Assembly (NCBI GenBank): GCA_017408025.1
Contig: JAFQVJ010000068.1
Span: 43,440-107,439 of the forward strand
Direction: 5' to 3'
DNA from: Lachnospiraceae bacterium
GTDB lineage: Bacteria; Bacillota; Clostridia; Lachnospirales; Lachnospiraceae
Length of the DNA: 64,000 nucleotides
In this document: piece by piece, positions 5,576 to 18,327 of the stretch
How the letters are laid out: the number at the start of each line of letters is the position of its first letter
How positions within the stretch are numbered: position 1 is the stretch's first letter
Program-made: the position numbers and the translations under genes
The notes under the pieces: generated by a model
The model's input: only the letters and a program-made list of their open reading frames with translations
What the model was told of the DNA's origin: nothing
The model's database searches: none

Positions 5576-5609
5576 AATCTATCCTTCCAGATTAATTGAA
5601 GGATAGATT
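5576..5609 (+). terminator. Hairpin between hisD and hisB
   Basis: Perfect 12-bp inverted repeat: AATCTATCCTTC at 5576-5587 and GAAGGATAGATT at 5598-5609, with a 10-base loop. Only a short T stretch follows, so it may act as a weak intra-operon terminator or as an mRNA stability/processing element rather than a full stop. Confidence 0.5.
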
Positions 5610-5636
5610 TGAATTTGTTATAGGAAGGATAATGAT

Positions 5637-6224
5637 ATGGCTAGAATAGGAAACGTTAAAAGAGAAACTGGAGAAACACAGATAGAAGTTACTATCAGCC
5701 TTGATGGTACCGGCAAGGCTGATGTTAATACAGGTATAGGATTTTTTGACCACATGTTGAACAATTTTGCAAGACACGGTCTGTTTGATTTGACTGTAAA
5801 GGCAACAGGAGACCTTTATGTGGATTGTCATCATCTTGTAGAAGATACTGGTATCGTTCTTGGTCAAGCCATATTGATGGCACTTGGAGACAAAAAAGGT
5901 ATCAGGCGTTATGGCAACGCCATATTACCTATGGATGATGCATTGATTCTCTGTGCCTTAGATCTTTCTGGCAGACCGTATTTTGCATATGACTTGAAGT
6001 TTAGTCAGCCAATGTGCGGATATTTTGAAACAGCCATGACACGTGAATTCTTCTACGCAGTATCATATAGTGCCGCTATGAATCTTCACTTTAAGATGCT
6101 GTCAGGTGAAAACGATCACCATATTATAGAATGTGCATTTAAGGCATTTGCAAAGGCAATGGATATGGCAACGCAGAATGATGAGAGAATCACGTCAGTA
6201 CTGTCCACTAAAGGAATACTGTAG
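5637..6224 (+). CDS. hisB: Imidazoleglycerol-phosphate dehydratase
   Basis: Manganese enzyme removing water from imidazole glycerol phosphate to give imidazole acetol phosphate. The two repeated half-domains are evident from GIGFFDHML near residue 35, DCHHLVEDTG near residue 62, and the second-half NDHHIIECAFKAFAKAM near residue 160. These supply the His/Glu metal ligands. At 195 residues it is the monofunctional form without a phosphatase domain. TAGGAAGGATAATGAT precedes the start. hisC, hisH, hisA and hisF are not next to it. Confidence 0.95.
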   Translation: MARIGNVKRETGETQIEVTISLDGTGKADVNTGIGFFDHMLNNFARHGLFDLTVKATGDLYVDCHHLVEDTGIVLGQAILMALGDKKGIRRYGNAILPMDDALILCALDLSGRPYFAYDLKFSQPMCGYFETAMTREFFYAVSYSAAMNLHFKMLSGENDHHIIECAFKAFAKAMDMATQNDERITSVLSTKGIL

Positions 6225-9189: not shown

Positions 9190-11055
9190 ATGACTAAATT
9201 AGCATTATCAGATGAGATACTGATGAGTATCGATAAACCTGCCAGATATATCGGTCACGAAGTAAATATGGCAGTCAAAGACCTAAAGGATATAGATGTT
9301 AGGTTTGCTATGTGCTTTCCTGATGTATACGAGATAGGTATGTCCCATCTAGGAATCCAGATATTATACCATATGTTCAATGGCATGGATGGCGTTTACT
9401 GTGAAAGAGTTTATTCACCTTGGACTGACCTTGATAAAATCATGAGGGAACAGCATATTCCATTATTCACATTAGAAACACAGACACCAGTAAAGGATAT
9501 GGACTTTTTAGGCATAACTATTCAGTATGAGATGTGTTATACAAATATTCTACAGATTCTGGATTTGAGTGGTATAACTATGACCGCTGCCCATAGAGCT
9601 GAGGATGAGCCTATTGTAATTGGTGGTGGTCCTTGTACCTACAACCCTGAACCTATCGCTGAATTTTTTGATATCTTCTATATAGGTGAGGGAGAAACAG
9701 TATACAAGGATTTAATCAACGCATATCGTCATAATAAGGCTAATGGTGGAAGCCGACGTGATTTCTTAATGGCTGCTGCCAATATTCCCGGACTCTATGT
9801 TCCACAATTATATGAGGCTTCCTATAACAATGATGGAACTTTGAAAAGCTTTACACCAACTGTAGAAGGTGTCCCTACAACAGTAAAGAAGGAAATTGTT
9901 ATGGATATAAGCAATACGGTATATCCTGAAAGACCTATTGTTCCATATATCCGTGCCACACAGGACAGAGTAGTTTTGGAAATTCAGAGAGGTTGTATCA
10001 GAGGATGTCGATTCTGTCAGGCGGGTATGATTTATCGTCCAGTCAGAGAGAGAGATGTAGAATTCCTCAAGGATATGGCCGTAAAGATGCTAAAGAGTAC
10101 TGGTCACGAAGAGATTACATTAAGCTCCCTTAGCAGTTCGGACTATTCTAAGCTTGATGAATTACTGAACTTCTTAATTGACGAATTTAAAGGTAAGGGT
10201 GTCAATATATCATTGCCATCACTTCGTGTAGATGCATTTTCCCTTGATGTAATGAGCAAGGTTCAAGATGTTAAGAAAAGCTCTCTTACATTTGCCCCTG
10301 AAGCTGGTTCACAACGTATGAGAAATGTTATAAATAAAGGACTTACGGAAGAAGATATATTAAACGGCTGTGCCCTTGCGTTCAAAGGAGGTTGGAACAA
10401 GGTTAAGCTATATTTTATGCTTGGTCTTCCAACAGAGACAGAGGAGGATATGAAGGCGTTAGCTGAGCTTTCGGAGCTTGTGGCTGAGAAGTATTATGAG
10501 ATACCAAAGTCAGAGCGAAATGGCAAGGTTCAAGTGACAGCCAGCAGCTCATTCTTCATACCAAAGCCATTTACTCCATTTCAGTGGGCAGCTATGTGTA
10601 CCAAGGATGAATTCCAGCGTCGCGCCTATGTTGTAAATGACCGAATGAAGGAAATGCTTAACAGAAAGAGCCTTAAATATAATTACCATGACCCTGACAC
10701 ATCTATCATTGAGGGACTTCTTGCCCGTGGCGACAGAAAGGTATCTAGTGTCATAAAGAGAGTATATGAGGCTGGTGGTATATATGATGCATGGGGCGAA
10801 TATTTTAACTACGATAGATGGTTAGCAGCTCTTGAGGCAGAAGGTCTCGACCTGGATTTCTATACTACAAGAGAACGTAGCACAGATGAATTGTTTCCAT
10901 GGGATTTCATAGATACAGGTGTGACAAAGAATTTCTTAAAGAGAGAGTGGCAGCGTGCACACGAAGAACAGATTACTCCAAATTGCCGTATGGAGTGTCA
11001 GGGTTGTGGCGCAGCAGTATTTAAAGGAGGTGTCTGCTTTGAAGATAAGAATTAA
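9190..11055 (+). CDS. B12-binding-type radical SAM protein (TIGR03960-like)
   Basis: Radical SAM protein of the conserved but incompletely understood family paired with DUF2344. The iron-sulfur motif RGCIRGCRFCQAGM (CxxxCxxC, near residue 275) is plain. A cobalamin-binding-like domain comes before it, including FPDVYEIGMSHLGIQILY near residue 37. The C-terminus carries further Cys residues (CRMECQGCG). GGAGAG five bases before ATG 9190 favours this start over ATG 9172. Its last 17 bases overlap the DUF2344 gene. In many Clostridia this pair precedes RNase G and rplU and is suspected of a role in tRNA or ribosome maturation, which is inference. Confidence 0.88.
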   Translation: MTKLALSDEILMSIDKPARYIGHEVNMAVKDLKDIDVRFAMCFPDVYEIGMSHLGIQILYHMFNGMDGVYCERVYSPWTDLDKIMREQHIPLFTLETQTPVKDMDFLGITIQYEMCYTNILQILDLSGITMTAAHRAEDEPIVIGGGPCTYNPEPIAEFFDIFYIGEGETVYKDLINAYRHNKANGGSRRDFLMAAANIPGLYVPQLYEASYNNDGTLKSFTPTVEGVPTTVKKEIVMDISNTVYPERPIVPYIRATQDRVVLEIQRGCIRGCRFCQAGMIYRPVRERDVEFLKDMAVKMLKSTGHEEITLSSLSSSDYSKLDELLNFLIDEFKGKGVNISLPSLRVDAFSLDVMSKVQDVKKSSLTFAPEAGSQRMRNVINKGLTEEDILNGCALAFKGGWNKVKLYFMLGLPTETEEDMKALAELSELVAEKYYEIPKSERNGKVQVTASSSFFIPKPFTPFQWAAMCTKDEFQRRAYVVNDRMKEMLNRKSLKYNYHDPDTSIIEGLLARGDRKVSSVIKRVYEAGGIYDAWGEYFNYDRWLAALEAEGLDLDFYTTRERSTDELFPWDFIDTGVTKNFLKREWQRAHEEQITPNCRMECQGCGAAVFKGGVCFEDKN

Positions 11056-11779
11056 ATTCAGTAAAACTGGGGCAGTGAGATTCATCGGTCATCTAGACGT
11101 AATGAGATACTTTCAGAAGCTTAACAGAAGAGCAGGCATAGATGTGAAATATTCTACAGGATTCTCTCCACATCAGATAATGTCCTTTGCTGCACCTTTA
11201 GGTGTAGGACTTGAAAGCCACGGTGAGTACGTTGATATAGAGGTTAATTCAACAATGTCTTCGTCAGAATCAATCAAGGCTCTTAACAATGCATCTATAG
11301 AGGGTATACAGGTTACTTCGTATGTAGAACTTCCAGAGGGAACGGCAAATGCCATGTCATCTGTAGCAGCAGCTGATTACATAGTTCGCGTCAAGGAACA
11401 GTACAAGCCAACTGTCATTGCTGATAACGCTATGTTGAAGAAACGATTTGAAGAATTCTTAAGTCAATCATCAATTGTAGTTACCAAGGCTTCTAAAAAA
11501 TCTGAACGTGAGGTAGATTTGCGACCACTTATATACAAGGCTTCTGTTAATGAAAATGGCGAAATATTCATGCAACTATGTACTGGAAGCGCTGAAAACC
11601 TCAAGCCTGAGCTGGTATTAGAGACTTTCTTTAGGTATGTAGGTGACAAGATGAGCCAGTTTGCACTGGATATATGCCGTCTTGAGGTTTATGGTCTGTA
11701 TACTAGCAAGGATGAAAATGGAAATGTTATAAGCGAAAAGCTTATACCTCTTGAGCAATTTGGCAAGGAAATCTTATAA
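11039..11779 (+). CDS. DUF2344 protein, partner of the radical SAM protein (TIGR03936-like)
   Basis: A 246-residue protein of the DUF2344 family, beginning (M)KIRIKFSKTGAVRFIGHLD, with the family's FSPHQIMSFAAPLGVG motif near residue 48. No enzymatic function is established. The start is a TTG at 11039, eight bases after a perfect AAAGGAGG that lies inside the radical SAM gene; an upstream in-frame ATG at 10955 has no ribosome site. In some bacteria the two proteins are fused, and here they overlap by 17 bases, so joint action is likely. A hairpin follows before rng. Confidence 0.88.
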   Translation: MKIRIKFSKTGAVRFIGHLDVMRYFQKLNRRAGIDVKYSTGFSPHQIMSFAAPLGVGLESHGEYVDIEVNSTMSSSESIKALNNASIEGIQVTSYVELPEGTANAMSSVAAADYIVRVKEQYKPTVIADNAMLKKRFEEFLSQSSIVVTKASKKSEREVDLRPLIYKASVNENGEIFMQLCTGSAENLKPELVLETFFRYVGDKMSQFALDICRLEVYGLYTSKDENGNVISEKLIPLEQFGKEIL

Positions 11780-11792
11780 ATCATATGAATAA

Positions 11793-11826
11793 AAATAAGA
11801 CAGTCATGCTATTGTCTGTCTTATTT
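11793..11826 (+). terminator. Hairpin with T-run directly before the rng ribosome site
   Basis: Perfect 11-bp stem AAATAAGACAG/CTGTCTTATTT with a 12-base loop, ending in a run of T. It looks like an intrinsic terminator for the radical SAM/DUF2344 transcript. The AGGAGG of rng (11830-11835) begins only four bases after the stem, so a terminated or structured leader would directly affect rng. Confidence 0.75.
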
Positions 11827-11839
11827 TTTAGGAGGAAAA

Positions 11840-13138
11840 ATGGATAATGCAAATACTCCAAATAATAATGTAAATAACAAAATAGTCCTGACAAGGCTTA
11901 ATCTGGACAATATGCAGCCAGCAACATTTTTTGCTATTTATGAAAATGGTAAGGCACAAAGGGTAGAGCTTTTCTATGATGATGACAGATATGATCTTGG
12001 CAATATATATGTTGCTCATGTCAATGATCTTGTTAAAAATATTAATGCAGCATTTGTAGAATATGCACCAGGTCACAAGGGCTACCTTTCCTTGGAAGAG
12101 TATCACGAAAAGAGCGATAGCGTATTCTTCACAAACAGAAAGAATACTAGAAAAGTCTGCCAAGGCGACAATATCCTTATACAGGTAAAAAAGGAGCCCA
12201 TAAAGACTAAGGATGCTGTTGTATCTACAAATATAGAATATTCCGGAAAATATATTGTGCTTACATATGGCAAGTCTGACATATCAGTCTCATCAAAGAT
12301 AACTGATAATTCTATAAGAGATGTTTTAAAAAAGCTTGGTGAAAGCTTTATAGCAAGTATAGATTTTGACAATCAGCAGTATCCTTTATTCACAGAAGAG
12401 ATATTTATGTCTATTTTACATGGTACTGGCATAATATTCCGCACAGAATGTGGAACAGAAGAAGCTCTCGAAAATCAAGGTTTAATTCGTGAAGAGCTCG
12501 TAAGGCTTTTTCAGGAATTTCTCATGATATTTCATAAGGCTATGTCGTCTAAGGGCAGGACTCTTATCAAAGAGGCACAAACCCCCATAATAACCATGAC
12601 AAAAAATGCTCTTAAACACACTGAAAATGAAGACAATGAGGTTATAACAGATTCAAAGGAAATATTTGATACATTGGCATCGGAAGGCATTAAAGCAAGA
12701 CTTTATCTGGACGAGCTATTGCCGCTATATAAGCTTTACAGTGTAGAATCTGTTTTGAATGAGATAATATCTAAAAAGATATGGCTTAAATCAGGTGGTT
12801 ATCTTATCATTGAATACACAGAGGCCATGACTGTAATCGATGTGAATACTGGCAAGTGCGACCAAGGCAAAGATAAAGAGAAGACTATCATGAAGATTAA
12901 CACAGAGGCTGCTGATGAAATATTAAGGCAGCTCCGTCTTAGAAATATCTCAGGTATAATCATTGTAGACTTCATTGACATGAAATCAGAGGATTTCAAG
13001 TCCCAATTAATGCGACAATTAAAGTCTAAAGCAGCAAAGGACCAGGTACGAACAACCATAGTTGATATGACCCGACTAAATCTAGTAGAAATTACTAGAA
13101 AGAAGATTCGTGAGAGAATCATAATCAAAAAAAGCTAA
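11840..13138 (+). CDS. rng: Ribonuclease E/G family protein, short form
   Basis: Endoribonuclease for rRNA processing and mRNA decay. An S1-like RNA-binding segment lies near residues 45-125, followed by the RNase H-like and DNase I-like catalytic regions. The two metal-binding Asp residues are present as VIDVNTG (Asp334) and IVDFIDM (Asp380). The protein ends at residue 432, right after the TRKK motif, so the CxxC zinc link and small domain that hold the E. coli enzyme together as a tetramer are missing. It is followed by dpaA, not by rplU as in many Clostridia. Confidence 0.9.
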   Translation: MDNANTPNNNVNNKIVLTRLNLDNMQPATFFAIYENGKAQRVELFYDDDRYDLGNIYVAHVNDLVKNINAAFVEYAPGHKGYLSLEEYHEKSDSVFFTNRKNTRKVCQGDNILIQVKKEPIKTKDAVVSTNIEYSGKYIVLTYGKSDISVSSKITDNSIRDVLKKLGESFIASIDFDNQQYPLFTEEIFMSILHGTGIIFRTECGTEEALENQGLIREELVRLFQEFLMIFHKAMSSKGRTLIKEAQTPIITMTKNALKHTENEDNEVITDSKEIFDTLASEGIKARLYLDELLPLYKLYSVESVLNEIISKKIWLKSGGYLIIEYTEAMTVIDVNTGKCDQGKDKEKTIMKINTEAADEILRQLRLRNISGIIIVDFIDMKSEDFKSQLMRQLKSKAAKDQVRTTIVDMTRLNLVEITRKKIRERIIIKKS

Positions 13139-13151
13139 AATTATTTACTTA

Positions 13152-13180
13152 TCATATTTTTGTTGCCTCCTGCATATACT
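13152..13180 (+). promoter_or_regulatory. SigmaE-like promoter of dpaA
   Basis: TCATATT (13152-13158) fits the Bacillus SigmaE -35 consensus KMATATT exactly. After a 14-base spacer, CATATACT (13173-13180) fits the -10 consensus CATACAHT at 7 of 8 positions. SigmaE is the early mother-cell sporulation sigma factor. Initiation is predicted around 13187, in the loop of the hairpin at 13165-13202. Confidence 0.6.
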
Positions 13181-13202
13181 GTTGTGACACAGTACAGGAG
13201 GC
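13165..13202 (+). promoter_or_regulatory. Hairpin hiding the dpaA ribosome binding site
   Basis: GCCTCCTG (13165-13172) pairs with CAGGAGGC (13195-13202), and ACTG (13178-13181) with CAGT (13190-13193). The 3' arm contains the AGGAGG ribosome site of dpaA (ATG 13210). RNA reading through from rng would have the site buried, while RNA starting near 13187 would lack the 5' arm. Confidence 0.75.
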
Positions 13203-13209
13203 GAATTTT

Positions 13210-14136
13210 ATGACAGAATACAATTGTAATAAAGACATTTCCATAGGAGTTATAGCCTGTGATTTAAGACAGGTATATATGGCAAGAATGCTTGCCAAGG
13301 TGGGGTATAAAATACATCTTGTTTATTCCGAGAATCTTGATAAAGAAAAGCTTTACAGAATCATGCTTGACTCCGACTTTTCTGAATTCAAAAATCTTCG
13401 CATTTCCAACGATATAACAGACATCCTTATATCTTCAGAAGTTATAGCTGGTCCTGTACCATTTGACAAAATCAGCGAATTTATAACTATACCTAAATTT
13501 ATAAATGCCTTGACAGATAGAGCGAATTTAAACAAAACCCTGCTTTTTGCAGGTGTTATTGATGCTGATTGTAAAGAGATTCTTCTAAAAAATGGTGTTG
13601 AATGTATAGATTTTATGGAGATAGAGGAGCTTGCAGTATATAACACTATAGCCACCGCAGAAGGAATTATCGCTGAGGCCATCTTAAACAAAGAAACTAA
13701 TCTTCATAATAGTGAATGCATGGTCTTAGGATACGGTAAGTGCGCAAAAACACTTGCTAATAAATTAAAGGGTATAGGCGCTAATGTGACAGTAGTTGCA
13801 AGAAATCCAATGGATTTAACAACAGCATCAAGTCTTGGACATTCAACCTTAAATATTGCATCATTAAAAAATCACATTTATTGCTTTGAATACATTTTTA
13901 ACACTATTCCTCACATGATTCTTGATGATTCAGTATTAGAGCACGTACATCCTGAATCTGTCATATTCGACATAGCATCATTACCTGGTGGAGTAGACAA
14001 ATATTCAGCTGCCAAAAGAAATATAAAGCTAGTTCATTCTCTTGGCATTCCTGGAAAACACGCTCCAAAATCAAGTGGTGAGGCAATTGGAAATTATCTG
14101 ATGCAGTATATAGAAAAGCAAGTAGACATAATATAA
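13210..14136 (+). CDS. dpaA: Dipicolinate synthase subunit A
   Basis: With DpaB it converts dihydroxytetrahydrodipicolinate to dipicolinic acid, the calcium chelator that fills the spore core. It acts in the mother cell. The NAD(P)-binding Rossmann motif VLGYGKCAKTLANKLKGIGA lies near residue 174, and the C-terminal HSLGIPGKHAPKSSGEAIG is typical of the subunit. The length of 308 residues is normal. Its presence indicates that the organism makes endospores. The gene has its own SigmaE-like promoter and an occluded ribosome site. In Bacillus subtilis the homologue depends on the later factor SigmaK. Confidence 0.93.
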   Translation: MTEYNCNKDISIGVIACDLRQVYMARMLAKVGYKIHLVYSENLDKEKLYRIMLDSDFSEFKNLRISNDITDILISSEVIAGPVPFDKISEFITIPKFINALTDRANLNKTLLFAGVIDADCKEILLKNGVECIDFMEIEELAVYNTIATAEGIIAEAILNKETNLHNSECMVLGYGKCAKTLANKLKGIGANVTVVARNPMDLTTASSLGHSTLNIASLKNHIYCFEYIFNTIPHMILDDSVLEHVHPESVIFDIASLPGGVDKYSAAKRNIKLVHSLGIPGKHAPKSSGEAIGNYLMQYIEKQVDII

Positions 14137-14238
14137 ATATGTAAATATATTATGTAATAATTTAATAATTTTGTTTATCACACACTATACCTTCCTGAAT
14201 AGAATACATTATCACATTATTTTTAGGAGATTATGATA

Positions 14239-14832
14239 ATGGATATTAAAGGAAAAACAATAGGTGTAGCCTTTACAGGCTCCTTTTGCACATATAAAAA
14301 AGCATTTACAGAATTAAGAAAGCTTGTGGAGGCAGGAGCTGATGTATATACAATCTTTTCCGATAGATCTGCATCCATCACTTCAAGATTTGGTGAACCT
14401 TCCGCTTATCTTCAAGAAGCTGAAGATATAACTGGACACAAGCCTATTCTCACAATTGAAGGTGCAGAGCCTATAGGCCCGAAAGCATACCTTGATGTAA
14501 TGATTATGTTACCTTGTACTGGAAATACTGCTGCAAAGCTTTGCAACGGTATAGTTGACAGTCCGGTTCTTATGGCTGCAAAAGCTCATCTTCGTAATGA
14601 AAAGCCTCTTGTAATTACCATATCTACAAATGATGGTCTCTCAATGAACTTAAAGAATATAGGATTGCTTATGAATACTAAAAATATTTATTTTGTTCCT
14701 TTTGGACAGGATGATCACATCAAGAAACCCAATTCTCTCGTTGCTCATATTGATATGGTTATACCAACAATTGAACTTGCACTTGAAGGGAAACAGATTC
14801 AGCCTGTGGTTGTAAGTCCATTTATTAAATAA
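14239..14832 (+). CDS. dpaB: Dipicolinate synthase subunit B
   Basis: Flavoprotein-fold partner of DpaA in dipicolinic acid synthesis. The N-terminal GVAFTGSFCTYKKA motif and MIMLPCTGNTAAKLCNGI near residue 90 are family hallmarks. Its 197 residues match the family length. TTAGGAGA places the start at ATG 14239 (8-base gap) rather than 14233 (2-base gap). It lies 102 bases after dpaA on the same strand, and asnB follows at once. Confidence 0.92.
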   Translation: MDIKGKTIGVAFTGSFCTYKKAFTELRKLVEAGADVYTIFSDRSASITSRFGEPSAYLQEAEDITGHKPILTIEGAEPIGPKAYLDVMIMLPCTGNTAAKLCNGIVDSPVLMAAKAHLRNEKPLVITISTNDGLSMNLKNIGLLMNTKNIYFVPFGQDDHIKKPNSLVAHIDMVIPTIELALEGKQIQPVVVSPFIK

Positions 14833-14869
14833 TTTATCATCATGCCAAGAAGGCAGAAAGGTCAAGTAT

Positions 14870-16807
14870 ATGTGTGGAATATCAGGATTTTTTAACCCTT
14901 ACATGAACTTTTTTAAGGATGAAGCTTATTGGCGCCACACCATCAGAAAAATGAATACAGCCATAAGGCATCGAGGTCCTGATGATTCCGGTGGCTTTCT
15001 GACAGAAAATTGTGGTCTCGGTCATGTTCGTCTGTCTATAATTGATTTGGAAGGCGGACACCAGCCGATGACAAAGATGTACGGTTCATCAAAGTACCTC
15101 TATAAACAGAATGAAAATGTTAAAGTATGCCATTACAGTCGTTCAAGAACTGTTGCCATAGTCTACAACGGTGAAATTTATAATATGAATGAGCTTCGAA
15201 ATGAGCTCATCTGTGAAAGCGAAGCTCGCAAGAACATGCCTGGTGATGTTTCTGAACCTGTATTTTTTGATACAAACAGTGATACAGAGGTTATTTTAAA
15301 CGGTTATATTCTTCATGGTATTGACTATGTAAATAAGCTTAACGGTATCTTTGCATTTGCCATCTACGACAGTCTTAATGGACTATACATTTGTCGAGAC
15401 AGAGTAGGTGTTAAACCTTTATTTTATACTGAAATTGGCAATGACATTATCTTTTCCTCAGAGATAAAAGGCCTATTTGCACATCCGCTGGCTAAACCAG
15501 TTATAGATATTAACTCACTTAGAAGCGTGTTTGGTCTTGGTCCCGCAAAGAAGCAAGGTAGTGGAGTGTTTAAAAATGTCCGTGAAGTTTTGCCTGGACA
15601 TTATCTTCATGTAACCTTTGACGGTGTAGATGATGTAGCATATTGGCAGCTTGTAAGTCATTCTCACGAAGATTCACTTGAAGAAACTATCGAGAAAACA
15701 GCTTATCTTGTCAAGGATGCTGTGGAAATGCAGATGCTTGCAGATATTCCTATATGCACATTTCTTTCAGGTGGCATTGACTCAAGCCTTGTATCAGCTA
15801 TATGCGCCAAGAAGCTTGCCAATGATGGCAAAAAGCTGACCACTTATAGCTTTGATTTCAAGGATAATAACATTTACTTTAAATCAAATGATTTCCAGCC
15901 TTCCGAGGACAGACCGTATGTTGACATCATGAAGGAACACATCAAATCTGACCATATTTACCTGGAGTGTCCGTATGAACAACTGTATGATTATCTCTTT
16001 GATACTGTAAAAGCAAGAGACTTACCATGCATGACCGATGTTGAGAGCTCCCTGTTATATTTTTGTGGTCTTGTGGCTGACAATCACAAGGTTGTACTCA
16101 CGGGTGAATGCGCAGATGAAATCTTTGGTGGCTATCCATGGTTCCATAAAAAGGATTTGCTTGAAGCTGGTACTTTTCCATGGTCCACAGATTTATCTCC
16201 AAGAACTATGCTCTTAAAGGATGAAGTTAAAAATGAACTGGATATACCTGCCTATATCCGCCAAATTTACGATCAAAGTATCGCAGCCACGCCTAGACTT
16301 ATAGGTGAGAAGGGCGAGGAGGCTATGCGACGTGAAATTTCATATCTTAATCTGACATGGTTTATGACTACACTTTTAGATCGAATGGATAGAACCAGCA
16401 TGTACAATGGACTTGAAGCCAGAGTGCCTTTTGCGGATCACCGTATAGTCGAATATCTTTGGAATGTGCCTTGGGAAATGAAATACCACAATAATACAGT
16501 AAAAGGGCTGCTACGCGAAGCTACAAATAGACTTGGGGTATTGCCTGACAGCGTGCTTAATCGCAGAAAGAGTCCTTATCCAAAGACTTATCACCCCGGC
16601 TATGAGGCTTTACTTGGGCAGCAGTTTAAAGAGCTTTTATCATCACCAAATGAGCCGATACACGAGCTTATTGATAAACAGAAGGCTTTACAGTTTATAA
16701 GCAGCGAAAAGGATTACGGAAAGCCTTGGTATGGTCAGCTCATGGCTGGTCCTCAGCTTATAGCATATATGCTGCAGGTTAATTATTGGATGAAAATGTG
16801 GTCTTAA
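14870..16807 (+). CDS. asnB: Glutamine-hydrolysing asparagine synthase
   Basis: Makes asparagine from aspartate, ATP and glutamine nitrogen. The N-terminal amidotransferase domain begins at Cys2 (MCGISGF), the nucleophile exposed once Met is removed, and carries RHRGPDDSG. The synthetase domain has the PP-loop SGGIDSS near residue 304 and GECADEIFGGYPW near residue 414. At 645 residues it is slightly longer than average because of a loop in the glutaminase domain (about 80-100). AGAAAGG precedes the ATG. It follows dpaB by 37 bases, but a functional link to sporulation is only a guess. Confidence 0.94.
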   Translation: MCGISGFFNPYMNFFKDEAYWRHTIRKMNTAIRHRGPDDSGGFLTENCGLGHVRLSIIDLEGGHQPMTKMYGSSKYLYKQNENVKVCHYSRSRTVAIVYNGEIYNMNELRNELICESEARKNMPGDVSEPVFFDTNSDTEVILNGYILHGIDYVNKLNGIFAFAIYDSLNGLYICRDRVGVKPLFYTEIGNDIIFSSEIKGLFAHPLAKPVIDINSLRSVFGLGPAKKQGSGVFKNVREVLPGHYLHVTFDGVDDVAYWQLVSHSHEDSLEETIEKTAYLVKDAVEMQMLADIPICTFLSGGIDSSLVSAICAKKLANDGKKLTTYSFDFKDNNIYFKSNDFQPSEDRPYVDIMKEHIKSDHIYLECPYEQLYDYLFDTVKARDLPCMTDVESSLLYFCGLVADNHKVVLTGECADEIFGGYPWFHKKDLLEAGTFPWSTDLSPRTMLLKDEVKNELDIPAYIRQIYDQSIAATPRLIGEKGEEAMRREISYLNLTWFMTTLLDRMDRTSMYNGLEARVPFADHRIVEYLWNVPWEMKYHNNTVKGLLREATNRLGVLPDSVLNRRKSPYPKTYHPGYEALLGQQFKELLSSPNEPIHELIDKQKALQFISSEKDYGKPWYGQLMAGPQLIAYMLQVNYWMKMWS

Positions 16808-16811
16808 AATG

Positions 16812-16840
16812 TGGACTTGAATGATATTTTGATGTATAAT
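16812..16840 (+). promoter_or_regulatory. Candidate SigmaA promoter for the HlyD-like/yggS/sepF genes
   Basis: TGGACT (16812-16817), a 17-base spacer and a perfect TATAAT (16835-16840). The -35 matches TTGACA at 4 of 6 positions. A small hairpin (ACAGATTA...TAATCTGT, about 16858-16883) lies in the leader between this site and the gene. Confidence 0.5.
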
Positions 16841-16914
16841 GAGGGATATGATTAAAGACAGATTACAGATATTGTTTAATCTGTAGAAGTCTGATATTTC
16901 ATGTGGAGGATACA

Positions 16915-18327
16915 GTGACTGATAATCATAATAGAAGAAACAATAGAAGAGTAGTTAAATATAGAAAGCGACGCAATATAAATATCGGTGTTCTTATATT
17001 TGCATGTATTTTCATATATTTCGTTATCTACATCGCCATGTTCTTAACGCGCGACAGGATTTCAGTATATGAAGTTGTCTATGGACAGACAGCCGATTCA
17101 TCAAACAAGTTTTATGAGGGTCTTATTATTAGAGACGAAACACCATTTTATGCCCCAAGCGCAGGATATCTTAATTGTTTTGTGCGTGAAGGTGAGAAGG
17201 TGGCTGTTGGTTCGACTGTCTACACCATAGATGAAAATGGAAATATTACCGAGCTTTTGCAAGAAACACTTGCTGAAAGCGACACTTTAACTGACGACAA
17301 TTATGCGTCTATTAAGAATATGATTTCTGACTTCACACTTAAATATAGCGATACCAATTTTGATTCAGTATATGATTTTAAAGTGGATATTGATGCTGCA
17401 TTACTTGAATATGTCAATCTGAACGCAATCAATGATATCATTGGTTCAATGAGTGCAGAAAGTCTGGCATTATTTAACATGGTAAAGGCTGAGCAGTCTG
17501 GCATTATCGCATATTACGTTGACGGCTACGAGGATAAATCTGTTGAAGGGCTTACCACAACAGATTTTAATAAAGAGGCATATGTAAAGACCACTAACAA
17601 ATCTAATGACCTTGTGGCAGCAGGTAGTCCAATTTATAAAACCATAAACAGTGAAAAATGGGATATTGTCATACCTTTGTCAGATGAAGATGTAAAAAAA
17701 TATTTTGAGGATACCCGTATCAAGATACGTTTTCAGGAAGATAATATTACGGCTGTGGGTGACTTTGAGATTATGTATATAAATGGACAAGCCTATGGAC
17801 GTATTTCTCTTGAACAGTATATGGTTCGTTATGCTTCTGAGCGTTTTATAAATATTCAGATTGTAGAGGATCAGATTGAAGGACTAAAAATTCCGAAAAC
17901 CGCTCTTGTGACTTTTGATTTTTATATCATTCCGGAAAAATTTGCAACTTATGGCGGCAATACTTCTGATGCTGGCTTCCTTGTAGAAAAATATGATGAA
18001 GATGGCAATGTGTCAGTTGAGTATATCAATCCAATGATTTATGAATTCAAAGATGGATATTATTATGTCAGTACAGAGGATTTTAGTTCAGGCCAAAATC
18101 TTATATTAGAAGACAATTCCGAAAAATACACAATCAGTGCTAAACAGTCACTTACAGGTGTATACAATATCAATAATGGATATTGTGTATTTAGAGATGT
18201 AAATATTTTAGCTACAACGAATGATTATTATATAGTCGAAAGTGGTACAGCATATGGTCTGTTAGTCTATGATCATATTGTTCTTGACAGCTCAGCTGTC
18301 ACGGAAAATCAGGTTGTATATCACTAA
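16915..18327 (+). CDS. HlyD-like single-pass membrane protein
   Basis: A short basic cytoplasmic tail is followed by one transmembrane helix (about residues 22-45) and a large outer domain. The segment GLIIRDETPFYAPSAGYLNC (about 67-86), followed by VREGEKVAVGSTVYTID, resembles the lipoyl-like domain of HlyD-type membrane adaptors. The remainder is beta-rich. No ABC transporter partner is adjacent. Instead yggS and sepF follow, which is the division-cluster setting of this family in Lachnospiraceae, so a cell-envelope or division role is possible but unproven. TGGAGGA five bases upstream sets the GTG start at 16915 (470 residues). Confidence 0.75.
   Translation: MTDNHNRRNNRRVVKYRKRRNINIGVLIFACIFIYFVIYIAMFLTRDRISVYEVVYGQTADSSNKFYEGLIIRDETPFYAPSAGYLNCFVREGEKVAVGSTVYTIDENGNITELLQETLAESDTLTDDNYASIKNMISDFTLKYSDTNFDSVYDFKVDIDAALLEYVNLNAINDIIGSMSAESLALFNMVKAEQSGIIAYYVDGYEDKSVEGLTTTDFNKEAYVKTTNKSNDLVAAGSPIYKTINSEKWDIVIPLSDEDVKKYFEDTRIKIRFQEDNITAVGDFEIMYINGQAYGRISLEQYMVRYASERFINIQIVEDQIEGLKIPKTALVTFDFYIIPEKFATYGGNTSDAGFLVEKYDEDGNVSVEYINPMIYEFKDGYYYVSTEDFSSGQNLILEDNSEKYTISAKQSLTGVYNINNGYCVFRDVNILATTNDYYIVESGTAYGLLVYDHIVLDSSAVTENQVVYH

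Follow-up and report, generated by a model that had tools for sequence, protein, structure and literature searches.

The window analysed here is a 64,000-nucleotide stretch of a Lachnospiraceae genome (G000; 2.35 Mb in 71 contigs) in which a ribonuclease gene, rng, is followed by the dipicolinate synthase genes dpaA and dpaB and by an asparagine synthase gene (Table 1). The top NCBIfam model for rng was TIGR00757 (260.5 bits), under the curated cut-off of 325.95. The top models for dpaA also lay under their cut-offs (NF006162, 241.1 bits against 261; TIGR02853, 165.5 against 319.65), and the gene is named dpaA because these were its best matches and dpaB is its neighbor. The same genome encodes sigE, sigK, sigG and spoIVA. 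The order rng-dpaA-dpaB-asnB was identical in two other members of the genus, G006 and G007, while rng is followed by sequence other than dpaA in G003 and G005 and, in G001, by a gene that we take to be rplU from its first residues. Any dpaA match was found in four of eight genus genomes, one of them remote, and having dpaA follow rng appears to be a local feature of a single subgroup. The genus member G005 had no sigE above the cut-off, no spoIVA and no dpaA match, and apparently does not sporulate.

Table 1. Features of the rng-dpaA locus, in window coordinates
Feature	Position	Strand	Remark
rng (Rne/Rng-family ribonuclease)	11840..13138	+	Housekeeping gene upstream of dpaA; source of read-through RNA
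rng stop codon	13136-13138	+	
−35 element TCATATT, SigmaE-like	13152..13158	+	Own ATA 16 nt ahead of CATA
Promoter spacer, 14 nt	13159-13172	+	
Hairpin 5′ arm GCCTCCTG	13165..13172	+	Within the −35/−10 spacer, second half
−10 element CATATACT	13173..13180	+	Opens the hairpin loop
Inner stem TACTGT/ACAGTA	13177-13182/13189-13194	+	Within the hairpin loop
Predicted transcription start	G13186/A13187	+	In the inner-stem loop; predicted from the spoIVA leader logo
Hairpin 3′ arm CAGGAGGC	13195..13202	+	Holds the SD
dpaA SD AGGAGG	13196-13201	+	Inside the 3′ arm
Lock-to-ATG spacer GAATTTT	13203..13209	+	Weak U-tract
dpaA (dipicolinate synthase subunit A, 308 aa)	13210..14136	+	ATG at 13210
dpaB (dipicolinate synthase subunit B)	14233..14832	+	Above both cut-offs, NF006161 and TIGR02852
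asnB-type asparagine synthase	14870..16807	+	TIGR01536 above cut-off

Three further elements were noted in the window. A hairpin (AATAAGACAG/CTGTCTTATT) followed by a T6 run and AGGAGG lies just before the rng ATG (11790-11840); this terminator-like element, directly ahead of the rng Shine-Dalgarno (SD) sequence, is absent before rng in G006 and G007. The gap between dpaA and dpaB holds a block, TATCACATTATTTT(T)AGGAG, common to three species (window 14137-14242; L180, 3895-4007; L181, 3901-4034), and by eye a CATTAT in this gap is complementary to the ATAATG where dpaB starts, a pairing that would place the SD in the loop. At 5580-5640, a perfect 9-bp repeat (TATCCTTCC/GGAAGGATA) is found at the start of a 195-aa gene, the second copy including AGGA.

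Upstream of dpaA, the 5′ arm of a hairpin lies wholly inside the spacer of a SigmaE-like promoter and directly abuts its −10 element. The stem, which could be extended by the pairs T13164-G13203 and T13163-A13204, is GC-rich and fits an intrinsic terminator stem, and the loop spans 22 nt. Initiation was predicted by a rule of 13 to 14 nt past the C of CATA, where spoIVA leaders favor a purine; the predicted start agrees with the position of about 13187, in the loop, put forward in an earlier sequence-only reading of this DNA.

That reading had also held that the hairpin buries the AGGAGG of dpaA, and the computed fold bears this out. Using RNA energies, opening the SD was calculated to cost 15.6 kcal/mol in the read-through RNA, a value reached by none of 1,000 dinucleotide shuffles of the 5′ sequence (top shuffle, 15.2), and 0.7 kcal/mol in an RNA beginning 14 nt past the C of CATA. 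The fold of 13139-13215 had a z of −5.4 and was equalled by none of 200 shuffles; a longer stretch of 141 nt was less striking, with a z of only −1.9 and 13 of 200 shuffles folding equally well. These results confirm that the dpaA hairpin is real and beyond chance. The strict pattern CCTCCT-N6-36-AGGAGG has a single match in the 2.35-Mb assembly, at the dpaA hairpin; one match was likewise obtained with its backwards control. Over seven genomes it was found at 15 places versus seven for the control, and by our own reading these include terminators and other hairpins besides SD locks. A loose CCTC..CATA..GAGG pattern gave no clear enrichment over its backwards control (83 versus 68 in G000, 67 versus 59 in G006, and 52 versus 60 in G007). 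Rfam searches returned no matches in window positions 11000-17000 (E value up to 1) or in seven loci (gathering score).

A search for related loci with a single protein identified none, and one with an alignment query identified two, those of G007 and G006. Their dpaA genes are 51 to 54% identical to that of the window. Both leaders form the hairpin from arms of other sequence that have changed in a compensating way, and in both the 5′ arm lies within the spacer of a SigmaE-like promoter; conservation of the arms in relatives, proposed as a check in the sequence-only reading, takes the form of compensating changes. The −35 and −10 elements are TCATATT-N14-CATATACT in the window and TCATAAA-N14-CATATACT and GCATAAT-N13-CATATATA in the other two. 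Each of the three leaders folds at a z of about −5, with none of 200 shuffles as good. Beyond four invariant CCTC/GAGG pairs, the arms vary at nearly all positions: the position just outside CCTC is G-C, A-T and T-A across the three species, and three more inner positions are altered on both sides in G000 versus the other two. Duplexes of a leader's own arms were calculated at −17.9, −11.9 and −12.5 kcal/mol versus −6.0 to −9.5 kcal/mol for arms of mixed species. Covariation was judged by a swap of 5′ halves among spoIVA leaders and a table of pairs at dpaA, the 3′ arms being out of register in alignment A3. Between the long RNA and the RNA with a CATA start, the SD opening cost is predicted to fall from 12.8 to 0.4 kcal/mol in G007 and from 13.3 to 1.2 kcal/mol in G006 (0 of 1,000 shuffles in each). 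An SD was recognised in 54 of the 58 dpaA-type loci examined; stems were 8 to 12 in all three rng-dpaA leaders, and a stem of at least 7 was found in none of the other 51 with an SD (at most 6), one of which, L061, is a remote match that may not be dpaA. In G006 and G007 the 5′ arm starts about 4 to 5 nt past the rng stop codon, and a terminating rng ribosome could keep it open.

The same anatomy was identified upstream of spoIVA in five of seven genus members and in much of the family. From 258 spoIVA leaders found, a set of 117 from 102 genera (own tally) was assembled from seven of the genus, the 30 family hits with the highest scores and the 80 ranking after those, picked by protein score and not by leader; 113 had a recognised SD. 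A leader was called locked if opening its SD cost at least 6 kcal/mol and its stem was at least 6, and relieved if a start 14 nt past some CATA cut an opening cost of at least 6 kcal/mol by at least 4 kcal/mol. The SD was hidden in a strong hairpin in 88 of the 113 leaders and would be freed by a CATA start, at a predicted SigmaE site, in 78. Swapping 5′ halves across species lowered the mean opening cost from 13.5 to 7.4 kcal/mol (p = 6e−33), and pair types at variable stem positions differed widely among species. Still, 53% of the swapped chimeras stayed above the lock threshold, since a C-rich arm can find a partner in many G-rich SDs. A scan for Watson-Crick-only stems missed spoIVA owing to a G-U pair. 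Outside the family, eight of the best 30 of 112 order-level spoIVA hits were locked and nine of the 30 showed relief. Many spoIVA leaders from elsewhere in the order (L300, L303, L318 and L322, for example) carry a near-palindrome, TGTACCCATACA, after a −10 element CATATATTT; Lachnospiraceae leaders have TGTAWCAG in its place.

Genomic context was compared using orientation classes that were derived from open frames only and are therefore crude. The 88 locked spoIVA genes comprised 80 in tandem with the gene upstream, four ambiguous and four unclassified; the 25 unlocked ones comprised 16 in tandem, that is, behind a co-directional gene, five ambiguous, three divergent and one unclassified. 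With the five unclassified left out, tandem genes made up 80 of 84 locked versus 16 of 24 unlocked leaders (p = 5.6e−4). The best matches upstream of six locked spoIVA genes were a LivF-type transporter ATPase (twice), uridine kinase, FolD and a response regulator/phosphodiesterase (twice), only the uridine kinase exceeding its cut-off. A separate terminator-like hairpin was found in the gap of 2 of 82 locked versus 4 of 21 unlocked tandem spoIVA genes (p = 0.015), so that 17 of these 21 had neither lock nor separate terminator. In tandem dpaA gaps, such hairpins were found in 12 of 30 unlocked versus none of three locked loci.

The promoter within the lock was compared across these leaders. 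In the 78 locked spoIVA leaders with a CATA at −62 to −25, the consensus was approximately GGAATAA for the −35 and GCATATA(C/T)T for the −10 element, with an ATA-to-CATA distance of 16 nt in 42, 17 in 10, 15 in four, 14 in one and 13 in four. In the window, TCATATT-N14-CATATACT shows the SigmaE features of a −35 with ATA, the spacing and a −10 of the form CATATA-T. A matrix trained on 40 locked spoIVA leaders, none from the genus of the window and all with predicted rather than mapped promoters, placed the dpaA promoter of the window first of 616 gene starts, 138 of which had a scorable CATA. Its score of 21.2 compares with a training median of 20.1 and a background 95th percentile of 9.3; the runners-up were G000 spoIVA (19.1), G006 dpaA (14.9) and a next start at 11.9, and the G007 dpaA promoter, scored separately, reached 14.2. 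The claim of the sequence-only reading that a SigmaE-like promoter overlaps the 5′ arm is supported by this rank and by the position of the arm inside the spacer. On these promoter letters, SigmaE would be the sigma factor acting on dpaA, the −35 of SigmaK (AC) having been looked for by eye only. In C. difficile, dpaAB is SigmaK dependent (PMC3789822), so a SigmaE promoter at dpaA here would be a shift. In B. subtilis, SigmaE activates spoIVA, SpoIIID later shuts it off, and asnO is a member of the SigmaE regulon (PMC517825).

The 616 background gene starts came from the window, 20 stretches of G000 and 20 of G006; several G006 stretches had been picked for pattern hits or dpaA, including those with a 124-aa gene and with G006 dpaA, and the G000 spoIVA stretch was sampled before spoIVA was known to lie there. 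The hairpin threshold was passed by 25 starts and hairpin plus CATA relief by four: G000 dpaA, G006 dpaA, G000 spoIVA and the G006 124-aa gene. With only four such starts, three of them at dpaA, dpaA and spoIVA, the device is rare and sits on sporulation genes. The 124-aa gene (L170, 14727; L130, 1501-1556) lies behind a pyridoxamine kinase gene and has a strong SD hairpin with CATACA in the loop and a weak promoter score (5.0).

Other SD hairpins were observed in the genus. The strongest among the 616 starts (20 kcal/mol; L157, 15212, in G006) has no CATA promoter in its loop and precedes a 396-aa protein without a known family. In G001, CCTCCTTGCATATACT...AAGGAGG (L117, 1501-1570) precedes a 424-aa protein without a family match, 21 nt past a methyltransferase gene; it resembles a further lock, yet its ATA-CATA spacing is 13. 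An HPr-like gene in G002 (L126, 1257-1534) has an SD hairpin, and a G000 gene with a similar start (L145, 11594), by eye an apparent homologue, has a weaker hairpin and CATACA.

We propose that one hairpin would sort RNAs according to where each begins. RNA entering from rng would carry both arms and fold, silencing dpaA through its predicted buried SD; in leaders whose stem runs into a U-tract, the polymerase may in addition terminate at the start codon. The mother-cell SigmaE promoter would be built into the DNA of the hairpin, its spacer forming the 5′ arm and its −10 element the start of the loop. Transcription beginning within the loop would then give a sporulation RNA that lacks the 5′ arm and whose SD, only a few bases in from the 5′ end, lies exposed, as the sequence-only reading had it and as the folding model predicts in all three rng-dpaA genomes; such an RNA could support neither hairpin folding, SD hiding nor termination. 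The device would allow a spore gene to be placed immediately after a growth-phase gene with no separate terminator in between.

A different account is that the hairpin serves only as an intrinsic terminator, for rng and likewise for the genes ahead of spoIVA; it would borrow the SD of the next gene as its G-rich arm and hide it as a by-product. The tails of locked spoIVA leaders suit this account: the T fraction between SD and ATG was 0.73 in locked and 0.37 in unlocked leaders and 0.30 in the 616 background starts, and a T-run of at least 5 was found in 49 of 88 locked leaders, none of 25 unlocked leaders and 6 of 616 background starts. It is also consistent with the T7 that forms the tail past the G007 stem (TTTTTTT) and with the rarity of separate terminators in locked tandem gaps. 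A terminator would moreover protect dpaB and asnB, in whose leaders no lock comparable to that of dpaA was found; hiding the dpaA SD alone leaves both open to read-through, which favors some termination at the dpaA hairpin. However, a T-run of 4 is missing in 24 of the 88 locked spoIVA leaders, the tail is weak in the window (four T among the eight bases past the 3′ arm) and reads ATTAATTT in G006, and the loops are long because the −10 element lies in them. A terminator scan listed none at the dpaA hairpin, as its loop limit of 8 excludes a 22-nt loop by construction. Termination as the sole function is thus considered unlikely, while the U-rich tails indicate that in locked spoIVA leaders the hairpin probably terminates read-through RNA as well.

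The inverted repeat could instead act at the DNA level, as an operator bound by a repressor such as SpoIIID, with RNA folding irrelevant. It extends from the spacer to about +15, and SpoIIID is the protein that shuts off spoIVA in B. subtilis (PMC517825). A protein site would keep its letters, whereas the arm letters here change by species and stay complementary, and the SD, at a constant spacing from the ATG, is always part of the 3′ arm; an operator was rejected on these grounds and is very improbable. A chance inverted repeat, in which C/T-rich letters happen to match a purine-rich SD, could draw on the ease with which SDs pair with C-rich stretches, as in the chimeras that still pass, and on the modest z of the longer stretch; set against the absence of any equal among 1,000 shuffles in each of three species, the compensating changes and the 88 of 113 leaders locked at spoIVA versus 25 of 616 gene starts, it is scarcely credible. 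RNA thermometers likewise bury SDs in hairpins, but a leader regulator of that type, or a ligand switch, acting on the transcript of the gene itself is just as hard to credit and was rejected, since no Rfam model matched and the predicted own RNA, without the 5′ arm, would have nothing left to switch.

The anatomy, the covariation, the promoter match and the context statistics are shown by the sequences themselves. It is considered probable that a hairpin lock with an embedded SigmaE promoter sorts read-through from sporulation RNA at dpaA, and that the device is used again at spoIVA across a large part of the Lachnospiraceae. From the computed folds and the start rule, we infer that the read-through RNA is silent and that the real start lies in the loop. 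The two-level lock on a spore gene, as originally conceived for dpaA, stands in its promoter and hairpin anatomy; it has to be amended in that termination may act too and that the lock is not a one-off of dpaA. We lean, by a small degree, towards a wider interpretation in which a three-in-one element of the Lachnospiraceae (terminator, ribosome-site lock and SigmaE promoter) insulates mother-cell genes from whichever gene precedes them, with spoIVA as the standing case, and arose anew where dpaA moved behind rng; the 5′ end alone would decide whether an RNA of a given gene is silent or active. If true, this would explain how a gene for sporulation can follow a growth gene at a distance of a few dozen bases and still not leak, a single element replacing terminator, promoter and leader, and would account for a common spoIVA leader hairpin that no Rfam model matches. 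It makes precise predictions at the sequence level (compensating arms, and 5′ ends that fall within a loop), would bring a phage T4 trick into bacterial development and offers a ready-made insulator part.

A literature search that covered few subscription journals found no sporulation case of an SD lock with a promoter in the hairpin, the nearest being papers on T4; the logic of the lock is already known from that phage, and for the sporulation setting no earlier report was found. In the T4 late genes e and soc, in I-TevI and segB and in mobE of phage Aeh1, the ribosome-binding site is hidden on a long early or middle RNA, and a late promoter within the 5′ strand of the hairpin gives a short RNA without that strand, which is translated (PMC2988022, PMC3014915). 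At dpaA, similarly, the SD is computed to lie in a stable helix on RNA started upstream, and the promoter is placed so that RNA from the predicted start would lose the 5′ strand and free the SD. Unlike in T4, the genes are chromosomal, the elements are SigmaE-like with no phage gene or phage late promoter, and the predicted switch is a sporulation sigma factor; the U-tracts at locked spoIVA leaders suggest a termination layer, and the arrangement recurs at unrelated genes (spoIVA and dpaA) behind different neighbors. The likeness would thus be one of logic, not descent. In the transposase genes of IS10 and IS50, RNA from outside folds and hides the ribosome-binding site and the element's own RNA does not, much as proposed here for read-through and sporulation RNA; their inverted repeat is the end of a mobile element, whereas that of dpaA sits in a normal gap between genes and incorporates the −35/−10 spacer. 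An intrinsic terminator ahead of a promoter also insulates a gene by stopping upstream RNA, and many locked spoIVA leaders share its U-tract. In contrast to such an insulating terminator, the hairpin, the SD and the promoter of dpaA occupy the same bases.
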